This document shows positions 10,365 through 52,769 of a DNA stretch of 64,000 nt, piece after piece. Positions within the stretch are counted from its first letter, which is position 1; each line of letters begins with the position of its first letter. The stretch comes from Thiohalophilus thiocyanatoxydans. Its GTDB lineage: Bacteria > Pseudomonadota > Gammaproteobacteria > UBA6429 > Thiohalophilaceae. The notes below the pieces were generated by a model that was given only the letters and a program-made list of their open reading frames with translations, was not told the origin of the DNA and did no database searches. Both the position numbers and the translations under genes were made by a program. Location: positions 62,001 through 126,000 of the forward strand of contig NZ_SOQX01000001.1 of assembly GCF_004366735.1 (NCBI RefSeq), given 5' to 3'.

Positions 10365-10844
10365 TCAATGCAGAATACCGGGCATTTCGTCGAACACCAG
10401 ATCTTCCATCCAGGCGAATGCCGCTTCCCTGCCCGGTTGATTAAACAGTACCATCAGGACGACCCATTTGAGCTGTTCCAGGTCGATTTCATCTTCACCC
10501 AGGGCCATGACCCGGTCGACAACCATTTCACGAGTGTAGTGATCCAGTACGCCGGTCTGCTCCAGAAACAGCAAAAAGCCGCGGGCTTCAATATCCAGCT
10601 TTTCACACTCTTCGGCGGTATAGATGCGAATCGATCCGGTGGTTTTGCCACTGTAGATCGAGGGGTCATCCTGCATCGCCACCAAGCCTTCCAGCCATTC
10701 AAAGGCGCGGGTGATTTCCACCTGGCGGAAACCCGCTTCTTGCAGTTCCACGCGCAGTGTTTCCTCGTCCGTATCGAATTCTATTTCATCATTCATATAG
10801 TTTTCAAACAGATACATCAATACGTCGAGTACACTCTCTTTCAT
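10365..10844 (-). CDS. smg: Smg family protein (DUF494)
   Basis: A 159-residue acidic protein beginning MKESVLDVLMYLFENYMNDEIEFDTDEE, the standard opening of the Smg/DUF494 family, which is encoded next to dprA and topA or def in many gammaproteobacteria. The function is not established. No catalytic motif or membrane segment is seen; the predicted character is mostly helical. The gene follows dprA by 12 bp and ends in a hairpin terminator, so the two are probably cotranscribed. Confidence 0.9.
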   Translation of the reverse strand: MKESVLDVLMYLFENYMNDEIEFDTDEETLRVELQEAGFRQVEITRAFEWLEGLVAMQDDPSIYSGKTTGSIRIYTAEECEKLDIEARGFLLFLEQTGVLDHYTREMVVDRVMALGEDEIDLEQLKWVVLMVLFNQPGREAAFAWMEDLVFDEMPGILH

Positions 10845-10856
10845 CTTTTTACCCCT

Positions 10857-11975
10857 CTAACAGGTCTGGCAATAATGGCCGCCATTGGTGGCGGCAACAA
10901 AGCCTTGCAATTCCAGCACCAAGAGCATGGAACAAACGGCATCGGCCGTCAATCCACTGCGTTCTACTACCGTATCTACGGATGTCGGCTCGTGACCGAT
11001 ACACTCCAGCACTTTTTGATACTCGGCGTCGAGTTCAGCCTTCGGATCCGCCGTACTCGGTTCACCAGAGGAGGCATCCGCTGTGACTTGATACCCCACC
11101 AGTTCGCCCAGCTCTTCGAGCACATCCTGCGCCGTTTCGACCAGCTTGGCTCCCTGGCGCAGCAGCTGGTGGCAGCCCCGGGCCTGGGGATTATGGATCG
11201 AGCCGGGCACGGCGAAGACTTCGCGCCCCTGCTCCAGCGCCAGCCGGGCGGTAATCAATGACCCGCTTTGCCGCGCGGCTTCCACCACCAGCACCCCTAC
11301 CGCCAGGCCGCTGATAATGCGGTTGCGCCGCGGGAAATTCCCCGCCAGCGGCGGCGTGCCGGGGGAGAATTCCGAGACCAGCGCACCGTGCCGGGCGATC
11401 TCGTGGGCCAGCTCACGATGGCGGGCCGGGTAGACCCGATCCAGGCCGGTGCCGACCACCGCCACACTGTAGCCGCCGCCCGCCAGGGCGCCCTGGTGGC
11501 TGGCGGCATCGATACCCAGCGCCAGGCCGCTGGTGATGGTCAAGCCCCGGCCGCCCAGGTGGCGGGCAAACTCCTGCGCCGTTTCGCGACCGGCCGGGGT
11601 CGGATTGCGGCTGCCGACCATGGCCAGTTGCGGCAGCTCCAGGCAATCGGGATCGCCATAGACGTACAGCAGCGGCGGGGGATCGGCCAGTGTCCGCAAC
11701 CGGGCCGGATAACGGGTGTCCGCCAGCGTCAGAATATGGGCCCCGGGCTGCGTCGCCCAGGCCAGATCGGCCTCGATCGCGGCCTCATCCGGAGCGTTTA
11801 ATGCCGCCACCGTCTCCTCCCGCAGGCCCGCCGCGCGCAACGCCGCCGATCCGGCGCCGAGAACCTTCCCGGGGCTGCCAAAACGCTCTATCAGGGAGTA
11901 AAAGGTCGCGGGGCCGATATGCGGGGCCCGATGAAGCACCAGCCAGGGGCGTAATGATTCCTGTTCGTCAGCCAT
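10857..11975 (-). CDS. dprA: DNA-processing protein DprA
   Basis: Binds incoming single-stranded DNA and loads RecA during natural transformation; widely kept also in strains not known to transform. The Rossmann-like core carries the signatures AMVGSRNPTPAGRETAQEF, TSGLALGIDAASHQGAL, FPRRNRIISGLA and QSGSLITARLALEQGREVFAVPGS. A C-terminal winged-helix (DML1-like) domain follows (YQKVLECIGHEPTSVDTVVERSGL...). The frame runs to 12023, but MADEQESLRPWLVLHRAP at 11975 matches family N-termini and has an ATG start. About 372 residues. Sits in the usual LysM-dprA-smg-topA neighbourhood. Confidence 0.95.
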   Translation of the reverse strand: MADEQESLRPWLVLHRAPHIGPATFYSLIERFGSPGKVLGAGSAALRAAGLREETVAALNAPDEAAIEADLAWATQPGAHILTLADTRYPARLRTLADPPPLLYVYGDPDCLELPQLAMVGSRNPTPAGRETAQEFARHLGGRGLTITSGLALGIDAASHQGALAGGGYSVAVVGTGLDRVYPARHRELAHEIARHGALVSEFSPGTPPLAGNFPRRNRIISGLAVGVLVVEAARQSGSLITARLALEQGREVFAVPGSIHNPQARGCHQLLRQGAKLVETAQDVLEELGELVGYQVTADASSGEPSTADPKAELDAEYQKVLECIGHEPTSVDTVVERSGLTADAVCSMLLVLELQGFVAATNGGHYCQTC

Positions 11976-12104
11976 ATAAGAAGTGTCCCGACCAAGTTCC
12001 GTTTGGTCCCCGCAAGCGGCCATTCAGCACCGCTTCGGTTGCCTCGGCCGGATTGTATCACCCGGCGGGGATTTGCACAGCCCCGCCGTCGCCGTTCACA
12101 TGCC

Positions 12105-13268
12105 TCAGGGGCTGGTGACCCGGTCTTTGACGTGCAGGGCGCGATTGGCCTCCATGACCAGGGCATAGCTGACCTTCTCGTAGGTCCGGAACACCATCAG
12201 GAGCCCGGCCCGCTCGTCGGGAAGCTCCACCGATCCCCGGTTGACGGGATCGCGGGCGGTGCCGCCGTCCTGATAGATTGCCAGCACATGGCCGGACTCC
12301 AGACCATCGCGGGCGCCCCGGCTCAGAATGACCACATTATGCTGGCCAATCTGCGAGAGGCCATTATGCACAGCGATAATATGGCCATTCACTTCCTCCT
12401 CGGGCGGCCGCGGGAAGAAATTAAATTCGAGCGTCTCTTCCTCTGCCGGCAGCAAATGATCGCCGTTGAGCACCTCCTGCCTGGCCCGTTCGATATTCAG
12501 GGTCGTCACGTCGTCCACGCCGGTCTTGCCGCGGGTCACCCGGGCTTCCGCCAGACGGAGGACTTCGTAGCCGAGGGTTTCGCCCGTCTCCGGATCCTTG
12601 TAGACCCGGCCGGGCCGAACCACCTCATAGCGGCCGATCGCCTCATCCTCGATATCCCGGACATAGATCGTGTTGTCGTTACTGCTGATCAGATGGCCTT
12701 CATAGCTGGAGACAATATAGGGGGCGTCATCCAGCTCATCTTTGCCGATCACCCGCGGGCGCTGCAAAAAGGGCGCAATCACCGATCGGGGAATGGTCGG
12801 AATGGCTTTATCGATCGGCTCGTAGCGTTCCCGCGGGGACAACCGGGTGGCCTCCCTGTCACGCGGTTCGGTAACGCCACCGCTGCCTTCCAGGGTCAGA
12901 TAGGGCTCGCCGTCAGCTCCATGATAGAGCACAATCACATCCCCAGGGTAAATCAGGTGCGGATTGCGAATCTCGGGGTTGATATGCCAGACCTTTGGCC
13001 ATAACCAGGGATCCTTGAGAAAGCGTCCGGCGATATCCCACAGGGTATCCCCCCGTTTGACCACATAACGCTCCGGGTAATCCGGCTTGAACACCGGTTT
13101 TTGCGGTTCGGCGTCGGGCGCTTCGTCGATTGTGTACGAGGTCGATTCAGGCGCCGAGGCCGGTTCGCGCTCCGGCGGGGCCGACCCACAGGCCGCCAGG
13201 CCCATGCCGAGCAAAACAATGGACAGGAAACGTGTCAAAATCGGGCCAGTCGGTTTATTATCTACCAT
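12105..13268 (-). CDS. LysM-domain lipoprotein
   Basis: A secreted lipoprotein of about 387 residues. The signal peptide ends in the lipobox LAAC, after which comes an acidic, Pro-rich linker and one LysM domain (YVVKRGDTLWDIAGRFL...NPHLIYPGDVIVL, about residues 55-105), which binds peptidoglycan. The remaining 280 residues are a conserved gammaproteobacterial domain of unknown function found next to dprA. ATG 13268 was preferred over the upstream GTG at 13292 because of a GGGGA ribosome-binding site. Divergent from def across about 160 bp. Probably an envelope-anchored factor; no enzymatic motif is seen. Confidence 0.9.
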   Translation of the reverse strand: MVDNKPTGPILTRFLSIVLLGMGLAACGSAPPEREPASAPESTSYTIDEAPDAEPQKPVFKPDYPERYVVKRGDTLWDIAGRFLKDPWLWPKVWHINPEIRNPHLIYPGDVIVLYHGADGEPYLTLEGSGGVTEPRDREATRLSPRERYEPIDKAIPTIPRSVIAPFLQRPRVIGKDELDDAPYIVSSYEGHLISSNDNTIYVRDIEDEAIGRYEVVRPGRVYKDPETGETLGYEVLRLAEARVTRGKTGVDDVTTLNIERARQEVLNGDHLLPAEEETLEFNFFPRPPEEEVNGHIIAVHNGLSQIGQHNVVILSRGARDGLESGHVLAIYQDGGTARDPVNRGSVELPDERAGLLMVFRTYEKVSYALVMEANRALHVKDRVTSP

Positions 13269-13431
13269 GAAGGATCCCCTGTCAGAGGCCACTTGTTATT
13301 CGAGTTTAATTGACCTGGCACCGGGAACAAGAAACCCCTGTCAGACAGGCCCATAGCGAGTAGTATCACAGTACTATCATAATGTTAGCAGCTTTTTCTA
13401 CACCCGTACTAGAGAAACGTCACGAAATCAT

Positions 13432-13935
13432 ATGGCAATGTTGAATATTTTGAATTATCCCGATGATCGGCTGCGCATCAAGGCGAAGCCGGTGACCGAG
13501 TTTGACGCCCGCCTGCACCGGCAGATCGACGACATGTTCGAGACCATGTACGCCGCGCCCGGCATCGGCCTGGCCGCCACCCAGGTGGATTTCCATCAGC
13601 GGCTGATCGTCATCGACGTCTCCGAGGACAGGAGTCAGCCGCTGGTACTGATCAATCCCGAGATCACCGAGAAGGACGGCATCCAGCAGATCGACGAAGG
13701 CTGCCTCTCCGTACCGGGCGTCTATGAACCGGTGGAGCGGGCCGAACATATTCGCCTCAAGACGCAGGATCGCGACGGCAATCCGCTGGAGATGGAAGCC
13801 GAAGGGCTGCTGGCGGTCTGTATCCAGCACGAGATGGATCATCTGGAGGGCAAGCTGTTCGTCGACTACCTCTCCGAACTCAAGCGCCAGCGCATCCGCA
13901 AAAAGCTGGAAAAACAGCAACGGCAGGCCGGATAA
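13432..13935 (+). CDS. def: Peptide deformylase
   Basis: Removes the formyl group from nascent N-terminal methionine; Fe(II)/Zn enzyme acting at the ribosome exit. All three signature motifs are present: GIGLAATQV (residues about 43-51), EGCLSVPG with the metal-binding Cys, and HEMDHLEG with the two metal-binding His and catalytic Glu. 167 residues is normal. It heads def-fmt-rsmB, with a 95-bp gap filled by a heptamer repeat before fmt. Confidence 0.97.
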
Positions 13936-13947
13936 ATCCGACAGTTG

Positions 13948-13990
13948 CTAGGTGCTAGTTTCTAGGTCCTAGAACCTAGCCCCTAGCACC
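13948..13990. repeat. Heptamer repeat, six ctagnnn units
   Basis: Six consecutive 7-bp units all beginning ctag (ctaggtg, ctagttt, ctaggtc and so on) fill the gap between def and fmt. Confidence 0.75.
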
Positions 13991-14030
13991 TTGGCGGCGT
14001 CTAACAAGTCGCAACGCACCCAGGAAGTCG

Positions 14031-15002
14031 ATGCCCTCTCAACAACGTCTAGTCTTCGCCGGCACCCCCGAGTTCGCCGCCACCGCCCTGCGGGCCCTGA
14101 TCGAAGCGGGGCACGCGATCGTGGCCGTCTACACCCAGCCGGATCGCCCGGCGGGGCGGGGGCGCAGGCTGCAGCCGGGGCCGGTCAAGCAGCTGGCGCT
14201 GGAACACGGGATCCCGGTCTGCCAGCCGGAACATTTCAAGTCCGACGCCGCCCTGGCCGAACTGGCCGCCTGGCAGGCGGATCGGATGATCGTCGCCGCC
14301 TACGGGCTGCTGCTGCCGCAACAGGTCCTCGACATTCCGGCACACGGCTGCCTGAACATCCACGCCTCGCTGCTGCCGCGCTGGCGCGGCGCGGCACCGA
14401 TCCAGCGGGCCATCCTGGCCGGTGACCGCGAGACCGGCGTCACCATCATGCAGATGGACGCCGGGCTGGATACCGGTGACATGCTGCTCAAATTGCCCTG
14501 TCCGATTGCCCCGGATGAGACCGGCGGCAGCCTGCACGACAAGCTGGCCGTTCTGGGCGGCAAAGCCATTGTGCAGGCGCTGGCTAACCTCGAACAGCTC
14601 CGGCCCGAGCCCCAGGACGATGCTCAGGCGACCTACGCCCGCAAGCTGGACAAGGCCGAGGCCCGGATCGACTGGCACAAACCGGCCGCCCGGCTGGCCC
14701 GCGAAGTGCACGCCTTCAACCCCTGGCCGGTGAGTCACACCCGGCTCGAGGGTGAGCCGCTGCGAATCTGGCAGGCCGAGGCACAGGAAATGTCCGGGGA
14801 TGATTCAGATCAGGTACCTGGCACCGTAGTAAGCACTGACTCTGACGGGATCGACGTGGCCTGTGGGCAGGGCCTGTTACGACTGCAACAGATCCAGCCG
14901 GCCGGCAGCAAAGCCATGAGCGCCGCCGCCTTTCTCAACGGCCGCCCCGGCCGGCTGCAGGTGGGCATGCGGCTGGGTGACGATGGCGGCGAAGCGTCCT
15001 GA
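14031..15002 (+). CDS. fmt: Methionyl-tRNA formyltransferase
   Basis: Transfers formyl from 10-formyl-THF to initiator Met-tRNA. 323 residues; N-terminal catalytic domain with the FAGTPEFAATALRALI start, the loop QPDRPAGRGRRLQPGPVK and the catalytic block NIHASLLPRWRGAAPIQRAI (Asn, His, and the downstream Asp in GVTIMQMDAGLDTGD). A C-terminal OB-like domain follows (about residues 205-315). The stop TGA shares its A with the ATG of rsmB, indicating translational coupling. Confidence 0.97.
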   Translation: MPSQQRLVFAGTPEFAATALRALIEAGHAIVAVYTQPDRPAGRGRRLQPGPVKQLALEHGIPVCQPEHFKSDAALAELAAWQADRMIVAAYGLLLPQQVLDIPAHGCLNIHASLLPRWRGAAPIQRAILAGDRETGVTIMQMDAGLDTGDMLLKLPCPIAPDETGGSLHDKLAVLGGKAIVQALANLEQLRPEPQDDAQATYARKLDKAEARIDWHKPAARLAREVHAFNPWPVSHTRLEGEPLRIWQAEAQEMSGDDSDQVPGTVVSTDSDGIDVACGQGLLRLQQIQPAGSKAMSAAAFLNGRPGRLQVGMRLGDDGGEAS

Positions 15003-16303
15003 TGAACGTCCGTCTCGCCTGCCTGCGGGTGCTGCAGCAGATTGTCCAGCAGGGCCAGAATCTGGATAACGCCCTGGACGGGATCCTGCCGCAGCTCGAT
15101 CAGGTCCGCGATCAGGCGCTGTTGCAGCATCTGTGCTACGGAGTGATACGCTGGTATCCGCAACTCGACTTTCTGCTCGGGCAACTGCTGCACAAGCCGC
15201 TGAAGAAAAAAGACGCCGATCTGCGTCTGTTACTGCTGCTGGGGCTGTATCAGTTACGCTTCAGCCGGATCCCGGCCCACGCGGCGGTGGGCGAAACCGT
15301 CGCCGTGACCCAGAGCCTCAACAAGGCGTGGGCGCGCGGCATGGTCAATGCGGTATTGCGCAACTATCAGCGTCAACAGGCCGAACTCGATATCAAACTG
15401 GAACAGGACGCCCCGGCCCGCACGGCCCATCCCGCCTGGCTGCTGACCCACCTGCAGCAGGCCTGGCCCGACCAGTGGGAAGCGATCGTCGAGGCCAACA
15501 ACACCCAGGCGCCGATGAGCCTGCGGGTCAACCGGCGCCTGGGCACGCGCGACGACTATATAAAGCGTCTGGCCGCGGCCGGACTCGAGGCCCGCGCCGC
15601 CGCCCACGGCGACAGCGGCGTGATTCTCGCCGAGCCCTGCCCGGTGGACCGGCTGCCCGGCTTTGCCGAGGGGCAGATCGCGGTCCAGGACGTCGCCGCC
15701 CAGCTGGCGGCACCGCTGCTGGATCCTCAACCCGGCGACCGGATCCTCGATGCCTGTGCCGCCCCCGGCGGCAAGACCGCCCATCTGCTCGAACAGCAGC
15801 CGGCAGTGCAGGAACTGGTCGCCCTGGATATCGATTCCCGGCGCCTGGAGCGCATCGCGCAAAATCTGAGTCGGCTGAATCTGCAGGCAACCCGGCTGGT
15901 GGGTGACGCCGCCCGGCCGGACGACTGGTGGGACGGCCAACTGTTCGATCGCATCCTGCTCGACGCGCCATGCAGCGCCACCGGCGTCATTCGCCGCCAT
16001 CCCGATATCAAGCTGCATCGCCGCCAGCGCGATATCCCGGCGCTGTGCGCCACACAACATGCTATGCTGTTGGCGCTGTGGAACCTGCTTAAACCGGGCG
16101 GTACCCTGCTGTACGCCACCTGTTCGATCCTGCCGGAGGAGAACCGGCAACAGGTGGAACATTTTCTGGCCGCCGTGGACAATGCCCGGCACGTTGCCCT
16201 GCCGACAGGCTGGGGGCACGCCCAGTCGGCAGGGCAACAGATCCTGCCCGGCGAGGATGATATGGATGGCTTTTATTACGCACGTCTGGTCAAGACAAGC
16301 TGA
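15002..16303 (+). CDS. rsmB: 16S rRNA m5C967 methyltransferase
   Basis: SAM-dependent methylation of C967 in 16S rRNA. 433 residues: N-terminal NusB-like RNA-binding domain (about 1-140), then the Rossmann methyltransferase. Visible motifs: SAM site LDACAAPGGKTAHLLE, motif IV DAPCSATGVIRRHPD and motif VI YATCSILPEENRQQV, whose Cys pair supplies the nucleophile and the base-release cysteine. It overlaps fmt by one base and the DUF4390 gene by about 38 bases. Confidence 0.96.
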   Translation: MNVRLACLRVLQQIVQQGQNLDNALDGILPQLDQVRDQALLQHLCYGVIRWYPQLDFLLGQLLHKPLKKKDADLRLLLLLGLYQLRFSRIPAHAAVGETVAVTQSLNKAWARGMVNAVLRNYQRQQAELDIKLEQDAPARTAHPAWLLTHLQQAWPDQWEAIVEANNTQAPMSLRVNRRLGTRDDYIKRLAAAGLEARAAAHGDSGVILAEPCPVDRLPGFAEGQIAVQDVAAQLAAPLLDPQPGDRILDACAAPGGKTAHLLEQQPAVQELVALDIDSRRLERIAQNLSRLNLQATRLVGDAARPDDWWDGQLFDRILLDAPCSATGVIRRHPDIKLHRRQRDIPALCATQHAMLLALWNLLKPGGTLLYATCSILPEENRQQVEHFLAAVDNARHVALPTGWGHAQSAGQQILPGEDDMDGFYYARLVKTS

Positions 16304-43736: not shown

Positions 43737-44195
43737 TCACTTTTGGCCTACGGCCACATCGCTCAGCTTGTCGAGCGCGCCCTGCATCTTCTTGATCACG
43801 TCGCCGCGATCATCGATGCCGTGCCGATCGGCAATATATTGCGGATCGTTATAGCCGAGCCAGACCTGGCCGTCGGCGTCCTCCCAGGCCAGTGCCTTCA
43901 TCGGCAGGTCGATGCCCGAGGTCTGTTCACTGGTAAACATATGGCTGCCCAGCGCGGGATTGCCAAACAGCAACAGCTCGGTATCGCGCAACGGAATATC
44001 GACCCCGGCGGCCTTTTCGGCATGATTCCAGCGGGTGACGATGCTGATGCCTTTTTTCTTCAGGACATTCTCCAGGCGATCCAGGGTTTCACTGGTGCTG
44101 TGCGGGCTCTGCTTGACCACCAGTCCGGGCACATCACTGGCCCAGGCGGCCGGCAGCAAACAAAGACTCAGAATAAAGATCGACAAACGTTTCAT
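43737..44195 (-). CDS. Exported DUF302 protein
   Basis: 152 residues with a signal peptide (MKRLSIFILSLCLLPAAWA) and a DUF302 domain: an alternating fold with the family block LLLFGNPALGSHMFTSEQTSGIDLPMKALAWEDADGQVWLGYNDP. Function unknown; DUF302 proteins are often periplasmic and linked to redox or sulfur metabolism. ATG 44195 has a strong GAGGAGGAAG site; the frame extends further but without support. 15 bp before rsmG, possibly cotranscribed. It is one of three DUF302-type proteins in this window. Confidence 0.85.
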   Translation of the reverse strand: MKRLSIFILSLCLLPAAWASDVPGLVVKQSPHSTSETLDRLENVLKKKGISIVTRWNHAEKAAGVDIPLRDTELLLFGNPALGSHMFTSEQTSGIDLPMKALAWEDADGQVWLGYNDPQYIADRHGIDDRGDVIKKMQGALDKLSDVAVGQK

Positions 44196-44564
44196 TGGGC
44201 TTCCTCCTCCAGATGGATTGTTGTTATGGCGAAGCGAATGTGACGGGAATGCCACTGCAAGGTTCCCGGCTTCGCCGCAGACTCTCTCCTAGTCTGTCCA
44301 CTCATTGTAATGATCCTGGCCGGCAATTCCCATCGCGGGTCGCCGCGACACCCGGCGACGCGTCTGCGCTGTTTTGACGCTTGTCGTGTTAATTCCCCCT
44401 TAAAGTTTACGTGAACCGGCCGATACCCCTGTAACCCGGTGACGCACCGCCCCGACAACAGACAACCCATTTCACCCTGGCCGATTCAGGCACGATGTGT
44501 GTAACAGCAGTCAGGGGCGCGAGGCGGGTAAAACGTCACTGCCAAACGCCAAGCGAGGTACATT
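44196..44564. other. Intergenic region between the DUF302 gene and the PilH-like gene
   Basis: 369 bp without a recognisable gene. It carries the divergent upstream regions, including the FliA-like promoter at 44401-44426 on the plus strand. Nothing else distinctive was seen. Confidence 0.5.
44401..44426 (+). promoter_or_regulatory. FliA (sigma-28)-like promoter before the PilH-like gene
   Basis: TAAAGTTT (44401-44408) matches the sigma-28 -35 consensus exactly, and GCCGATAC (44419-44426) matches seven of eight bases of the -10 consensus GCCGATAA. The spacing is 10 bp rather than the usual 11. It would give a leader of about 130 bases before the start at 44565. Confidence 0.45.
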
Positions 44565-46847: not shown

Positions 46848-46951
46848 GTGCTTGGGGCCTTATTAACAAGGGGCGCCATTGTACGCCGCTGGCGGGAAAT
46901 GCGCCAACATTCGCTGCAGCGCACCTGGCCAACCCCAGACAAAAAATAGTA

Positions 46952-46979
46952 TTGACAATGATTCTCATTTAGATATAGT
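46952..46979 (+). promoter_or_regulatory. Fur-controlled promoter of bfd
   Basis: -35 TTGACA (46952-46957), 16-bp spacer, -10 TATAGT (46974-46979). The Fur-box-like GACAATGATTCTCATTTAG at 46954-46972 matches 13 of 19 positions of the consensus and covers the spacer, so Fe-Fur would block the promoter. Confidence 0.75.
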
Positions 46980-47016
46980 AATACACAAGACTCACCACCC
47001 ACACAGGAATCGCACG

Positions 47017-47217
47017 ATGTACGTTTGTCTCTGCAAAGGCGTTACCGACACCCAGATCCGCGACGCGGTCATCGACGGCGCCGACTCCCTTGCCGACGTG
47101 CGCCGGGATCTCGGCGTGGCCAGCAACTGCGGCTGTTGCGCCAAGTGCGCCCGCCAGGTCATCAAGCAAACAAAGCAAGAGATAGCCTGCCTCGACGACG
47201 CCTGCCAGGTGGCCTGA
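47017..47217 (+). CDS. bfd: Bacterioferritin-associated ferredoxin
   Basis: 66-residue [2Fe-2S] protein that reduces bacterioferritin heme to release stored iron. The four-cysteine pattern CLC ... CGCC/CAKC of the BFD family is visible (C4, C6, then CGCCAKC near 36-42). It is preceded by a Fur box, so is expected to be induced by iron shortage. bfr lies 109 bp downstream. Confidence 0.93.
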
Positions 47218-47326
47218 TTGCCCCACACTTTGCCGGGTTGCAAGCCGCGACCCCCGCCACTATCTTTTTTTTACTTTCACGCCCCAGGCGGCGCCATACA
47301 ATAACCCGACAAGAGGCCGGACTCTT

Positions 47327-47791
47327 ATGCAAGGCGACAACAAAGTCATCGAGTATCTCAACAAAGCCCTGAAAAACGAGCTGACCGCCATTAACCAGTA
47401 TTTTCTGCACGCCCGCATGTACAAAAACTGGGGCCTGGAAAAGCTCAACGAGAAGGAATATGAAGAATCCATCGATGAGATGAAGCATGCCGATCAGCTC
47501 ATCGAGCGGATCCTGTTTTTAGAGGGGCTGCCCAACCTGCAGGACATCGGCAAGCTGCACATCGGCGAGAACGTCACCGAAATGCTCAAGGGCGACCTCA
47601 CCATCGAGCAGGAGGCCGTGCCGCTGCTGCGCGAGGCCATTGCCTATTGTGAATCCAAGCAGGATTACGTCAGCCGTGAACTGTTCGAATCGATCCTCGA
47701 AAGCGAGGAAGAGCATATCGACTGGCTGGAGACCCAGCTGGAATTGATCGACAAGGTCAGCCTGCAGAACTACCTGCAATCGCAGATGTAA
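47327..47791 (+). CDS. bfr: Bacterioferritin
   Basis: 24-mer iron-storage protein, 154 residues. All ferroxidase ligands of the E. coli protein align by number: E18, E51, H54, E94, E127 and H130; the heme-ligating M52 is present too, so this is a heme-binding subunit rather than a ferritin-like heme-free one. Together with bfd it forms a storage-and-release unit. A GC-rich inverted repeat follows the stop. Confidence 0.97.
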
Positions 47792-49244: not shown

Positions 49245-50519
49245 ATGCCGGATCGATCCCCCTCTCCGTCTGCCGCCGCGCCTGTCTCCAAACTCTGGTC
49301 GCGGGCCATCCTGCTGGTGGACATGAACGCCTTCTTCGCCTCGGTGGAGCAGCTTGAGCGGCCCGAGCTGCGCGATCGGCCGGTGGCCATTACCAACGGC
49401 GAACAGGGCACCTGCATCATCACCTGCTCCTACGAGGCGCGCCATCATGGTGTGCACACCGGCATGCGCCTCAAAGAGGCCGGGCAGTTATGTCCCGATC
49501 TGATTCGGATCCCGGCCCGGCCGCAACGTTACGCCGCCGTCTCCACGACGATCATGGCCGCGCTGCAGGAGACGATCAGTCCCGATATGGAGATATTCTC
49601 CGTCGACGAGGCGTTTCTCGACATCACCCGTTGTCAGAAGCTGCTCGGCCATCCCGCTGATATCGCGCAACGCGCCAAACAGATCGTCTTCGAGGTTTCG
49701 GGGTTGCGCTGTTCGGTGGGGCTCAGCGGCGACAAGACCACCGCCAAGTATGCCGCCAAGCTCAACAAACCCGACGGCCTGACGGTGATCCCGCCGGAGG
49801 AGGCCAGACAGACGCTGGCCGATGTGCCGGTCACCGAACTGTGCGGCATCAACCGCGGCATCGGCGAATTTCTGGCCGCCCGCGGCGTACATCGCTGCGC
49901 CGACATGGCCGGCCTGCCCATCGGCGCGCTGGCGCAACGCTTCGGCAATCCCGGGCGGCGCATCTGGTACATGGCCCGGGGGGCCGATCCCGATCCGGTC
50001 CACGTCAATGTGGCCCCGCCCAAAACCATCGGCCACGGCAAGGTGGTTCCGCCGGATACCCGTGATCGGGGCACGCTGCTGACCTTCCTGTTGCACATGA
50101 GCGAAAAAGTGGGGGAGCGGCTGCGTCGGCATCATCTGCAGGCGCAGCATTTTTTCATCGGTCTGCGTTGCGCCCGGGGCTGGCTCGGCACCCGCGCCCC
50201 GACCCGCCTGCCAACCGACGACGGCGGGGCGATCTACCAGTTGTCCCGCCAGGTGTTGCGTGATCACTGGCAGGGTGAAGGCATCCATCAGGTCCAGATT
50301 ACCGCGCTGGATCCCCGCAATGGCGAACGGCAACTGCAGCTGTTCGAGGCCGAACCCGTCCAGCAACGGGCCAGTAATCAGGTAATGGACGCCGTCAACC
50401 AGCGCTACGGGGAATTCACCCTGGCCCCGGCACGATTACTGAACCGCGCCGACATGCCGAACGTCATCTCCCCGGCCTGGAAACCGTTCGGTCATCGACA
50501 AACCATTTCCGACAATTAA
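49245..50519 (+). CDS. Y-family DNA polymerase (DinB/Pol IV-like)
   Basis: Translesion polymerase of 424 residues, longer than DinB (about 350). Catalytic acidic residues are intact: D26 in LLVDMNAFFASVEQ and D121-E122 in FSVDEAFLDITR, plus SCSYEARHHGVHTGM and the HhH region TELCGINRGIGEFLAARGV. The C-terminal little-finger domain continues to LQLFEA, a possible beta-clamp-binding peptide (QLQLFEA). Downstream of lexA in one operon, hence SOS-induced. It could be a DinB variant or a UmuC/ImuB relative; active-site residues argue against ImuB. Confidence 0.9.
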   Translation: MPDRSPSPSAAAPVSKLWSRAILLVDMNAFFASVEQLERPELRDRPVAITNGEQGTCIITCSYEARHHGVHTGMRLKEAGQLCPDLIRIPARPQRYAAVSTTIMAALQETISPDMEIFSVDEAFLDITRCQKLLGHPADIAQRAKQIVFEVSGLRCSVGLSGDKTTAKYAAKLNKPDGLTVIPPEEARQTLADVPVTELCGINRGIGEFLAARGVHRCADMAGLPIGALAQRFGNPGRRIWYMARGADPDPVHVNVAPPKTIGHGKVVPPDTRDRGTLLTFLLHMSEKVGERLRRHHLQAQHFFIGLRCARGWLGTRAPTRLPTDDGGAIYQLSRQVLRDHWQGEGIHQVQITALDPRNGERQLQLFEAEPVQQRASNQVMDAVNQRYGEFTLAPARLLNRADMPNVISPAWKPFGHRQTISDN

Positions 50520-51115
50520 GCCCCGGGGTTTTTCTGCCACACCAGCGTGCGGTTGTTGACCGGCATTTCGATATCTTCCACCAGAGAGAGACCCGCCGCC
50601 CCGGCGAGCCGTTGCAGGTCGGTCACGTCGCGCACCCCACTGACGGGATCCCGTTGGCGCAACCCCGTATCAAAGCGCGCATTGTTTTCACTGGTGTGGA
50701 CCCCGTCATACTTGAACGGCCCGTAAAGACAGAAGCGACCGCCGGGCGCCAGCACGCGCGCCACCCCCTCGAACAGGATCTCCACGGCGGGCCAGCCCAT
50801 GATATGCACCGTGTTGGCGCTGAAGATGCCGTCGTAGGTGTCCCGGGGCCAGGCGGGTTTACGCAGATCCAGCACAAAAGGTGCCGCCAGGTCGTCGCGT
50901 TGCGATTCCCCCTGCCAGAGGCGGATGCCCGGCAGGTTTTCCGCCACGTCGCTGGGCTGCCAGTGCAGGTGCGGCAGCTGCTCGGCAAAAAACACCGCAT
51001 GCTGGCCGGTGCCGCTGCCGATTTCCAGAATCGTTCGGCAGTCGGCAAACTGTTGTTGCAATACCGCCAGGATCGGCCACTTGTTCTCCTCACAGGCTTC
51101 GGCAAAAGGTTTCAT
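50516..51115 (-). CDS. DUF938 class I SAM-dependent methyltransferase-like protein
   Basis: About 199 residues. Motif I is TILEIGSGTGQHAVFFAEQLP, with DAPFVLDL-type acidic follow-up and IFSANTVHIMGW; this is the DUF938 family (start MKPFAEACEENKWPIL). Substrate unknown. The frame extends to GTG 51142; ATG 51115 matches family N-termini. Its stop overlaps that of the dinB-like gene by four bases (convergent). Divergent from the cytochrome gene across a region with FNR-type boxes. Confidence 0.88.
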   Translation of the reverse strand: MKPFAEACEENKWPILAVLQQQFADCRTILEIGSGTGQHAVFFAEQLPHLHWQPSDVAENLPGIRLWQGESQRDDLAAPFVLDLRKPAWPRDTYDGIFSANTVHIMGWPAVEILFEGVARVLAPGGRFCLYGPFKYDGVHTSENNARFDTGLRQRDPVSGVRDVTDLQRLAGAAGLSLVEDIEMPVNNRTLVWQKNPGA

Positions 51116-51153
51116 CAGACAGGACTCATTTTGGTTGGGCACTTGCGGTGCGT

Positions 51154-51184
51154 TGGATATGCATCAATATTTGATATGTATCAA
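51154..51184. promoter_or_regulatory. Tandem FNR/ANR-type boxes
   Basis: TTGAT-atgt-ATCAA at 51171-51184 is a perfect FNR consensus (TTGATnnnnATCAA). Its centre lies 41 bp before the start expected from the -10-like TATATT at 51207-51212, the class II position. A second box TGGAT-atgc-ATCAA (nine of ten) lies 17 bp upstream at 51154-51167. Confidence 0.75.
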
Positions 51185-51246
51185 TACTGGCTATTTATAT
51201 TAGTATTATATTAATTACCGGATCATCAAGCGATATGGGAGTTGGC

Positions 51247-52317
51247 ATGCGCATCGTGTTGTTATTTGGCCTGCTGGCAGCCGTTCTGGCCGGTTGCCAG
51301 GAAGGTCCTGCGTCGGCTGACAAGGCGGCGGCGCGACCCGACGGCGCCAGGCTGTACACGCAGCACTGTGCCGCCTGTCATGGTGACGAGGGTGACGGCG
51401 GGGTAGGCGTCCCCCTGAATCTGCCCGATTTTCAATATGGGGTCAGTGATCGGTTTTTAAAAGAGACGATTCGTCATGGCCGCCCGGGGCGGGTCATGCC
51501 GGCGTTCCCCACACTCAGTGACGCCGAAGTCGACGCCCTGGTCAGACATCTGCGCACCTGGGCGCCGGGCCAACCGCTTACCCCGACCGATGAAACCATC
51601 GAGGGCGATCCCCGCCGGGGCAAAGCGCTCTATGATAAACATTGTGTCAGTTGCCACGGCGCGCAGGGCGAGGGCGGCGAAGGCACCGGCGTGACATTCT
51701 CCCGGCCCCGCGATCTGCCTATTATCGCCCCGGCGCTCAACAACAGCGGCTTTCTGGCTGCCGCCTCGGACAAATTGATCAAGGCCGCGCTGATGAACGG
51801 CCGCGAAGGCACCCCGATGCCGTCGTTCCGCAAACAGGGACTCAGTGAACAACAGATCGACGATATCGTCAGTTATGTCCGCAGCTTCGAACAACAGCCG
51901 GACCCCACTGCCGTGGGCAGCGCCGACGATGAGCCGCTGACCATCAGCCGCGAATCGCCCCACTCCGTCGAGGAGACCGTTGCAGCCGTCAAGCGGGCCG
52001 CCGTGGGCAGAAACTTTCGTATTATCCGGACCCAGACACTCGAGGACGGCTTTTTCCCGGAGGCAGAGCAAAACCCCGATCAGGTGATCGTCCATTTCTG
52101 TAATTTCGATTTCCTCAACCGGGCTCTGGCCATCGATCCGCGGGTTGGACTGTTTTTACCCTGCCGGGTCACGGTCGCGAAGCACGAAGGCAAGGTCGAA
52201 GTCACGGCCATCAATCCCAAACGCCTGGCCTATCTGTTTAACAATGCCGAGTTGAACCGTCTTTGCGAGGAAATGGCTCAAACCTACAATGCAATTATCG
52301 ACGAAGCGACATTCTGA
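51247..52317 (+). CDS. Diheme cytochrome c lipoprotein fused to DUF302
   Basis: About 356 residues. Signal peptide with lipobox LAGC (Cys17), so attached to a membrane facing the periplasm. Two cytochrome c domains follow, each with CxxCH: CAACH at 41-45 with distal Met in RVMPAFP, and CVSCH at 133-137 with TPMPSF. From about residue 235 to the end is a DUF302 domain. The combination suggests electron transfer to or from whatever DUF302 binds; the reaction is unknown. ATG 51247 has GGGAG five bases upstream, better than ATG 51235. Stop overlaps the next gene by one base. Confidence 0.88.
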   Translation: MRIVLLFGLLAAVLAGCQEGPASADKAAARPDGARLYTQHCAACHGDEGDGGVGVPLNLPDFQYGVSDRFLKETIRHGRPGRVMPAFPTLSDAEVDALVRHLRTWAPGQPLTPTDETIEGDPRRGKALYDKHCVSCHGAQGEGGEGTGVTFSRPRDLPIIAPALNNSGFLAAASDKLIKAALMNGREGTPMPSFRKQGLSEQQIDDIVSYVRSFEQQPDPTAVGSADDEPLTISRESPHSVEETVAAVKRAAVGRNFRIIRTQTLEDGFFPEAEQNPDQVIVHFCNFDFLNRALAIDPRVGLFLPCRVTVAKHEGKVEVTAINPKRLAYLFNNAELNRLCEEMAQTYNAIIDEATF

Positions 52318-52769
52318 TGATGAAACGACTCACTCTACTATTCAGCCTGTTAATGCTGCTGACACCGGCCTACAGCGTCGACCGCCTGTTGATGGCGCGT
52401 ACCGAACAGGCCTTTCCCGAGGCCATGTTAAAGCTGCAGGAGACCATCAAAAAACACGGCTATACCGTCAGCCGGGTTCAACGGGTCGATATCGGTCTGA
52501 CCCAGTTCGGTTATGAAACTGACAAGTACCGGGTGGTTTTCTTTGGCAAGGCGGAAGAGATCCGGCGCATGAGCAGCGAGTATCCACAGCTGATACCGTA
52601 TCTGCCGTTGAAGATTGCGATCTTCGCCGAAGAGGAAGACACGCTGATGGTCTCTTTCAGCCCCCTGCAACTGATGGAGACGGATGAGCCCGAACTCAAC
52701 AGTGTGCTGGAGAACTGGACCGCCGATCTGCAGGCCATGCTTGCCGACATGCGCAACGACAACGAATAG
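52317..52769 (+). CDS. Exported DUF302-like protein partnered with the cytochrome
   Basis: 150 residues with a signal peptide (MMKRLTLLFSLLMLLTPAYS) and a body that looks DUF302-like: AFPEAMLKLQETIKKHGYTVSRVQRVDIGLTQFGYETDKYRVVFFG and PLKIAIFAEEEDTLMVSFSP. Identification is moderate. Start codon overlaps the cytochrome stop (TGATG), so translation is coupled and the two proteins probably act together in the periplasm. Confidence 0.78.
   Translation: MMKRLTLLFSLLMLLTPAYSVDRLLMARTEQAFPEAMLKLQETIKKHGYTVSRVQRVDIGLTQFGYETDKYRVVFFGKAEEIRRMSSEYPQLIPYLPLKIAIFAEEEDTLMVSFSPLQLMETDEPELNSVLENWTADLQAMLADMRNDNE

Follow-up and report, generated by a model that had tools for sequence, protein, structure and literature searches.

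Gene organization of the operon

The stretch of DNA analyzed here (the window) comprises 64,000 nt of the genome of Thiohalophilus thiocyanatoxydans (GCF_004366735.1, contig NZ_SOQX01000001.1, positions 62,001–126,000 of the forward strand), and all positions below refer to the window numbering. It contains an operon of two genes, the first of which codes for a cytochrome c–DUF302 fusion and the second for another DUF302 protein, preceded by a promoter with several recognizable elements:

51154–51167, strand not given: second FNR-type box, TGGATATGCATCAA, one mismatch
51171–51184, strand not given: perfect FNR-type box, TTGATATGTATCAA, at the class II position (-41.5)
51196–51217, strand not given: palindrome match, TATATTAGTATTATATTAATTA, candidate ArsR-type (BigR/SqrR-like) operator over the -10
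51207–51212, + strand: -10 hexamer TATATT, predicted transcription start about 51219
51235–51249, + strand: alternative start codons of the fusion gene, ATG 51235 and ATG 51247, with a Shine-Dalgarno-like GGGAG (51237–51241) before the second
51235–52317, + strand: fusion gene; lipoprotein signal, two cytochrome c domains, C-terminal DUF302
52317–52769, + strand: DUF302 partner gene; product exported, cysteines absent; start ATG 52317 or 52320

The true start of the fusion gene is probably ATG 51247 rather than ATG 51235, because the GGGAG stands 5 nt upstream of the former. An earlier reading of this DNA made from its letters and open reading frames (below, the sequence-only reading) described the two genes as coupled by TGATG, which is indeed present at 52315–52319. 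This arrangement gives an overlap of 1 nt, compared with 4 nt in 103 of 106 orthologs. Profile searches with the partner located it immediately downstream of the fusion in 107 out of 107 cases; the operon is a real and widely conserved two-gene unit. All of its parts come from known families, and their combination, i.e. a cytochrome–DUF302 fusion together with the partner, is new to the literature searched, in which we found no description of it.

The cytochrome c–DUF302 fusion protein

The sequence-only reading predicted a lipoprotein with two CxxCH domains fused to DUF302 and proposed a domain search of the C-terminal half. This search identified DUF302 (PF03625) at residues 281–328 with a score of 43.4 bits (Pfam gathering cut-off 23), and the cytochrome c domains were likewise recognized well above the cut-off (PF13442, 102.8 bits; PF00034, 88.4 bits). 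With two CxxCH motifs, downstream Met residues and the Pfam matches, they are two class I c-type cytochrome domains. Both CxxCH motifs, the candidate Met ligands M88 and M195, and the cysteines C289, C310 and C344 are invariant among 24 aligned orthologs. In one ortholog (L020, from genome G061) a short deletion has removed the second CxxCH and left the rest of the domain in place. As to the predicted lipoprotein, the window protein does possess an LAGC lipobox, but this lipobox occurs in 0 of 23 aligned orthologs, so that this feature is peculiar to the present genome.

The AlphaFold model of the fusion (pLDDT 83.7), which had also been proposed as a check, matches the solved DUF302 structures 1q9u, 7tj1 (from Brucella) and 1j3m (TT1751), with a TM-score of 0.85 (by target length) between its DUF302 domain and 1q9u. 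C289 and C310 are ordinary DUF302 residues, found with the same spacing in 1j3m, in 1q9u and in two further DUF302 proteins of this genome (L223 and L224), whereas C344 is an added cysteine of the fusion DUF302 domain. The fold is thus common to the solved proteins, the fusion domain and the partner; the fusion differs from the solved proteins in being exported, in carrying two c-heme domains and the extra invariant C344, and in its constant Cys-free paralogous partner.

Two c-type heme domains are also found in TsdA and in the c4/QcrC/CcoP-type diheme cytochromes. The fusion reached none of the curated CcoP or QcrC cut-offs. TsdA, a weak Foldseek match of the fusion model (E 0.018), has a Cys-ligated catalytic heme, whereas both putative distal ligands of the fusion are the invariant Met residues M88 and M195. 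With Met in both domains and no TsdA family match, we reject the assignment of the fusion as a thiosulfate dehydrogenase of the TsdA type.

The Cys-free partner and other DUF302 proteins

The partner, described in the sequence-only reading as an exported DUF302-like protein, scores 23.6 bits against DUF302, which is marginal with respect to the cut-off of 23. Its AlphaFold model (pLDDT 91.7) matches the same three structures, 1q9u with E 4e-9 and a TM-score (by target length) of 0.83, and the score above the cut-off together with the DUF302 fold makes it a member of the family. Profile comparison (98%, E 6.5e-14) showed that it is homologous over its full length to the fusion's DUF302 domain, whose cysteines it lacks. 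The window encodes a third DUF302 protein, as had been noticed before (43737–44255, - strand; 59.3 bits); it is exported and Cys-free, adjoins the rsmG/parA genes, and represents a different DUF302 type. The whole genome contains five DUF302 matches.

In loci L214–L218, L220 and L221 a cytochrome-free DUF302 protein with three cysteines is followed by the same type of Cys-free partner; four of these proteins were checked with Pfam. The existence of such pairs makes the DUF302 heteropair look like the core unit, and we infer that the DUF302 domain of the fusion and the partner form a heterodimer. Several of the cytochrome-free pairs occur in genomes that also carry the fusion. A works-like comparison, and only that, can be made with the sulfur carrier SoxYZ, likewise a pair of small exported proteins of which only one bears Cys. 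SoxYZ belongs to an unrelated family, and the present operon has heme domains; the Pfam matches above the cut-off are to DUF302 and cytochrome domains only, with none to SoxY or SoxZ.

Predicted FNR-type control of the promoter

Both boxes named in the sequence-only reading, a perfect one at the class II position and a nine-of-ten match 17 bp upstream, were recovered in our analysis. TTGATATGTATCAA is the sole perfect match to TTGATnnnnATCAA in the 64-kb window, and TGGATATGCATCAA the sole match with one mismatch. The distance of 22 nt from the end of the perfect box to TATATT puts the center of the box at -41.5 from the predicted start around 51219. The whole genome contains 15 perfect TTGATnnnnATCAA sites, compared with 0 sites for the reversed control pattern. 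We noticed no tandem second box like that at 51154–51167 in the printed promoters of the orthologs.

Of 106 orthologs, 42 are preceded by a box with no more than one mismatch, where Markov shuffles predict 1.4. In a comparison confined to the same loci, 26 of 77 fusion promoters carry such a box, and so do 14 of 731 other ORFs. The spacing was examined in 37 non-redundant promoters that bear the box: in 20 of them a hexamer agreeing with TATAAT at four or more positions lies exactly 22 nt past the box, while most other offsets yield only a handful. On the tree of the fusion the box requires 16 changes, of which at least nine are forced by well supported branches, and hence, despite its clustering, it extends across deep lineages. 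A good FNR box is missing from the nearest relatives of the window operon. In sequence, in the -41.5 position and in the spacing to the -10, the promoter corresponds to the FNR/ANR/DNR class II promoters. Since the box and the class II spacing are conserved across divergent orthologs, the predicted FNR-type class II control of the operon is well supported.

The divergent gene (50516–51142, - strand) encodes a DUF938 methyltransferase, which according to the comparison of orthologs probably starts at ATG 51115 and not at GTG 51142. We reject the reading that the box serves this gene: 17 of the 26 box-bearing loci have no DUF938 gene, and the window sequence contains no -10 at class II spacing toward the DUF938 strand.

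The genome encodes a canonical Fnr, which scores above the NCBIfam cut-off and possesses the [4Fe-4S] cysteines (CQKC...C plus a fourth Cys), as well as several Crp/Fnr paralogs. Other perfect boxes are located upstream of NnrS and of a NosR-like gene (the latter below the NosR cut-off). The gene that follows the NosR-like gene (L193) was considered as a candidate for nosZ and rejected; the nosZ match sits on another contig. The anaerobic or NO-responsive control postulated in the sequence-only reading therefore finds support in the conserved box and its class II spacing, in the canonical Fnr, and in the boxes at NnrS and the NosR-like gene. The DNR consensus, CTTGATnnnnATCAAG, is nearly the same as the FNR box (PMC1274295), and for this reason control by oxygen (Fnr) and control by NO are inseparable by sequence.

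This ambiguity bears on a reading in which the operon, controlled by NO in the manner of DNR, would serve in nitrosative stress or reactive-sulfur detoxification, the cysteines and hemes of its products removing NO, nitrosothiols or surplus persulfide. We regard it as quite improbable. In its favor, the box is equally compatible with DNR and FNR, another perfect box precedes NnrS, and one of the Crp/Fnr paralogs lacks the Fnr cysteines; however, the bases flanking the window box are T and T, where the DNR consensus has C and G, the proteins exhibit no similarity to known NO-handling proteins, and nosZ is absent from 33 of the 61 fusion-positive genomes.

A second palindrome and a candidate persulfide repressor

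The operon promoters add to the class II architecture a second palindrome, which overlaps the FNR-type box in several orthologs. It emerged from an untargeted count of dyads in the fusion promoters as nested forms of TATATTAG-N6-CTAATATA: ATATT-N10-AATAT is present in 26 of 89 promoters against 2.7 expected, and in the shuffles the count of every motif stayed at 10 or below. If up to two mismatches are allowed, 15 of 77 fusion promoters contain the palindrome, and of the 731 other ORFs in these loci 1 does. The site at 51196–51217 scores 15.3 bits against the promoter background (PWM), and with the palindromic model it is the top site of the 64-kb window (22.9 bits; the next one scores 18.4), its right half being imperfect. 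Most Thiobacillus orthologs show the palindrome only, and no FNR box. In L037, L038, L049, L050 and L090 the palindrome takes the form TATATTAG-N6-TTGATATA, so that its right half doubles as the left half of the FNR box; the overlap suggests a possible competition between two regulators.

The palindrome has 8 sites in Thiobacillus denitrificans RG and 8 in T. thioparus DSM 505, where the reversed control has 0. Some of these sites precede SoxB (which is clustered with SoxY and SoxZ), a rhodanese gene adjoining that of DsrE2, and a DUF302 gene; another lies close to a PhsA-like molybdopterin oxidoreductase, and others are at genes without an evident role in sulfur metabolism. Both Thiobacillus genomes and that of T. 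thiocyanatoxydans encode a small ArsR protein with two cysteines. The best solved relatives of the T. thiocyanatoxydans protein are BigR, YgaV, entries of SqrR, and HlyU, and its two cysteines line up in BigR and YgaV. Palindrome-like sites are found near the genes of the two-Cys ArsR proteins. ArsR repressors of sulfur oxidation that respond to sulfane sulfur are known (PMC10451225, PMC12423496), and a BigR/SqrR-type persulfide repressor of this kind may have its operator in the second palindrome; the literature searched offered no printed BigR operator for comparison. A further palindrome-like site of the genome (G000:C1:487992, L198:11293) lies 46 nt upstream of a gene for subunit I of a heme-copper oxidase, cbb3-like by eye.

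Phylogenetic distribution and association with sulfur oxidation

When 369 genomes sampled from the class were searched with the DUF302 part, 61 gave strong matches of the fusion, and a scan of GTDB genomes revealed 297 encoding stretches, the best 80 of which were fetched. Named loci include those of Thiobacillus, Sulfuriferula, Thiohalomonas, Thiogranum, Thioalkalivibrio and Chromatiales. Relatives in viral contigs were not found, and plasmids yielded cytochrome or DUF302 parts only, with no full fusion. Housekeeping genes surround the operon in the 80 loci, which show no conserved neighbor of known sulfur function. Partly recurring neighbors are carboxylesterase-like, DUF938 methyltransferase, adenylate-cyclase-like, GGDEF, argH and LytTR-type regulator genes; they recur only in some loci and carry no functional hint, and we dropped the neighborhood as a clue to function. 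Within the window, positions 46879–47791 contain a gene for a BFD-like [2Fe-2S] protein beside a bacterioferritin-like gene.

The gene soxB is present in 56 of 61 fusion-positive and 94 of 309 fusion-negative genomes, and dsrA in 48 of 61 and 71 of 309, respectively, in statistics that ignore shared ancestry. Four fusion-positive genomes possess neither gene. DUF302 genes have been placed in sox clusters (PMC5037610, PMC5248467, PMC11034169), namely those of Thermithiobacillus, Acidithiobacillus and Sulfitobacter, and a DUF302 gene is stated to belong to the sqr gene group of Synechocystis as well (PMC5061849). This group is repressed by an ArsR-type regulator (PMC4307280), a kind of control that we likewise propose for the present operon. 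The stand-alone DUF302 genes share the sulfur-oxidation setting, but they lie inside sulfur clusters, whereas the present operon is apart from the sox genes, and they have no heme domains and no described second DUF302 partner. That the operon belongs to sulfur oxidizers is well supported. The periplasmic redox step put forward in the sequence-only reading is supported, but its sulfur side had been missed: it is the second palindrome and the co-occurrence with soxB and dsrA that point to sulfur oxidation as its setting.

A metal- or heme-related periplasmic function, in which the Cys-bearing DUF302 would bind copper or iron and the cytochrome would serve this site, would agree with one DUF302 gene of the genome that adjoins an RND-type efflux gene and a cytochrome c (by eye), and with a DUF302 gene noted at a metal-resistance cluster (PMC7760498). 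Yet among the 80 loci the surroundings of the operon show no recurrent metal-resistance gene, the co-occurrence is with soxB and dsrA, and we consider such a function very improbable.

A denitrification gene, nosZ, is enriched too (28 of 61 fusion-positive vs 34 of 308 fusion-negative genomes), modestly so within the sox/dsr-positive genomes (25 of 57 vs 25 of 107), again with shared ancestry ignored. Together with the FNR-type class II promoter and the resemblance of the cytochrome part to QcrC, CcoP and c4-type carriers, this enrichment is compatible with a general electron carrier for anaerobic respiration, serving denitrification enzymes or a cbb3 oxidase, in which DUF302 would be a docking or stability module and the link to sulfur would reflect nothing but the lifestyle of the hosts. 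We find this explanation somewhat unlikely, as soxB remains strongly enriched among the nosZ-negative genomes (31 of 33 vs 76 of 274), there are DUF302 pairs without cytochrome whose partner is of the same type, and the second palindrome marks sulfur genes in Thiobacillus.

Proposed function

We propose, with a probability of roughly 0.45, that the operon encodes a periplasmic module for the redox chemistry of sulfur compounds, induced at low oxygen, in which the DUF302 pair acts on sulfur and the diheme cytochrome takes up electrons. At low oxygen (or in the presence of NO), an Fnr-family activator would bind the box at -41.5 and turn on transcription, while a second, sulfur-linked regulator, most likely a repressor of the BigR/SqrR-type ArsR group, would act on the AT-rich promoter palindrome and let go when persulfide is present. 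Both products would be exported, and the Cys-bearing DUF302 domain of the fusion would pair with the Cys-free partner. The resulting heterodimer could bind a reduced sulfur species (persulfide, polysulfide or similar sulfane sulfur) at its conserved cysteines, and the released electrons would pass through the two c hemes to the periplasmic pool of cytochrome c and on to a cbb3 oxidase or to denitrification enzymes. A more specific version, according to which the heteropair is a new periplasmic sulfur carrier or dehydrogenase, with sulfane sulfur bound and oxidized at the DUF302 cysteines and electrons leaving via the diheme cytochrome, appears doubtful and rather unlikely to us.

DUF302 proteins have solved structures and no known function, and the literature searched only remarks on their presence in sox and sqr gene groups. 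If the more specific version is true, it would provide the first function for this family; when oxygen is limiting, electrons from sulfur intermediates would then reach cytochrome c by a new path that answers to oxygen as well as to persulfide. The operon could also fill a gap in the account of how sulfur oxidizers deliver electrons to cytochrome c at times of scarce oxygen. An operon that joins DUF302, two c hemes, the partner, a low-oxygen box and a palindrome of a sulfur regulon presents a testable system for the function of DUF302.

Two other regions of the genome are of note. At G000:C5:116077 (L189) a perfect FNR box precedes a methyltransferase gene, which is followed by a gene for a sulfide:quinone-reductase-like (SQR-like) protein. 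The DUF302 gene of L224 sits between a flavocytochrome c sulfide dehydrogenase (FccAB-like and divergent from it) and a protein with the metallo-beta-lactamase fold, which may be a persulfide dioxygenase. The same sulfur island (G000:C9, about 10533–15576, L224:2534–7577) encodes a TlpA-like protein and a cytochrome c whose gene has its own perfect FNR box.
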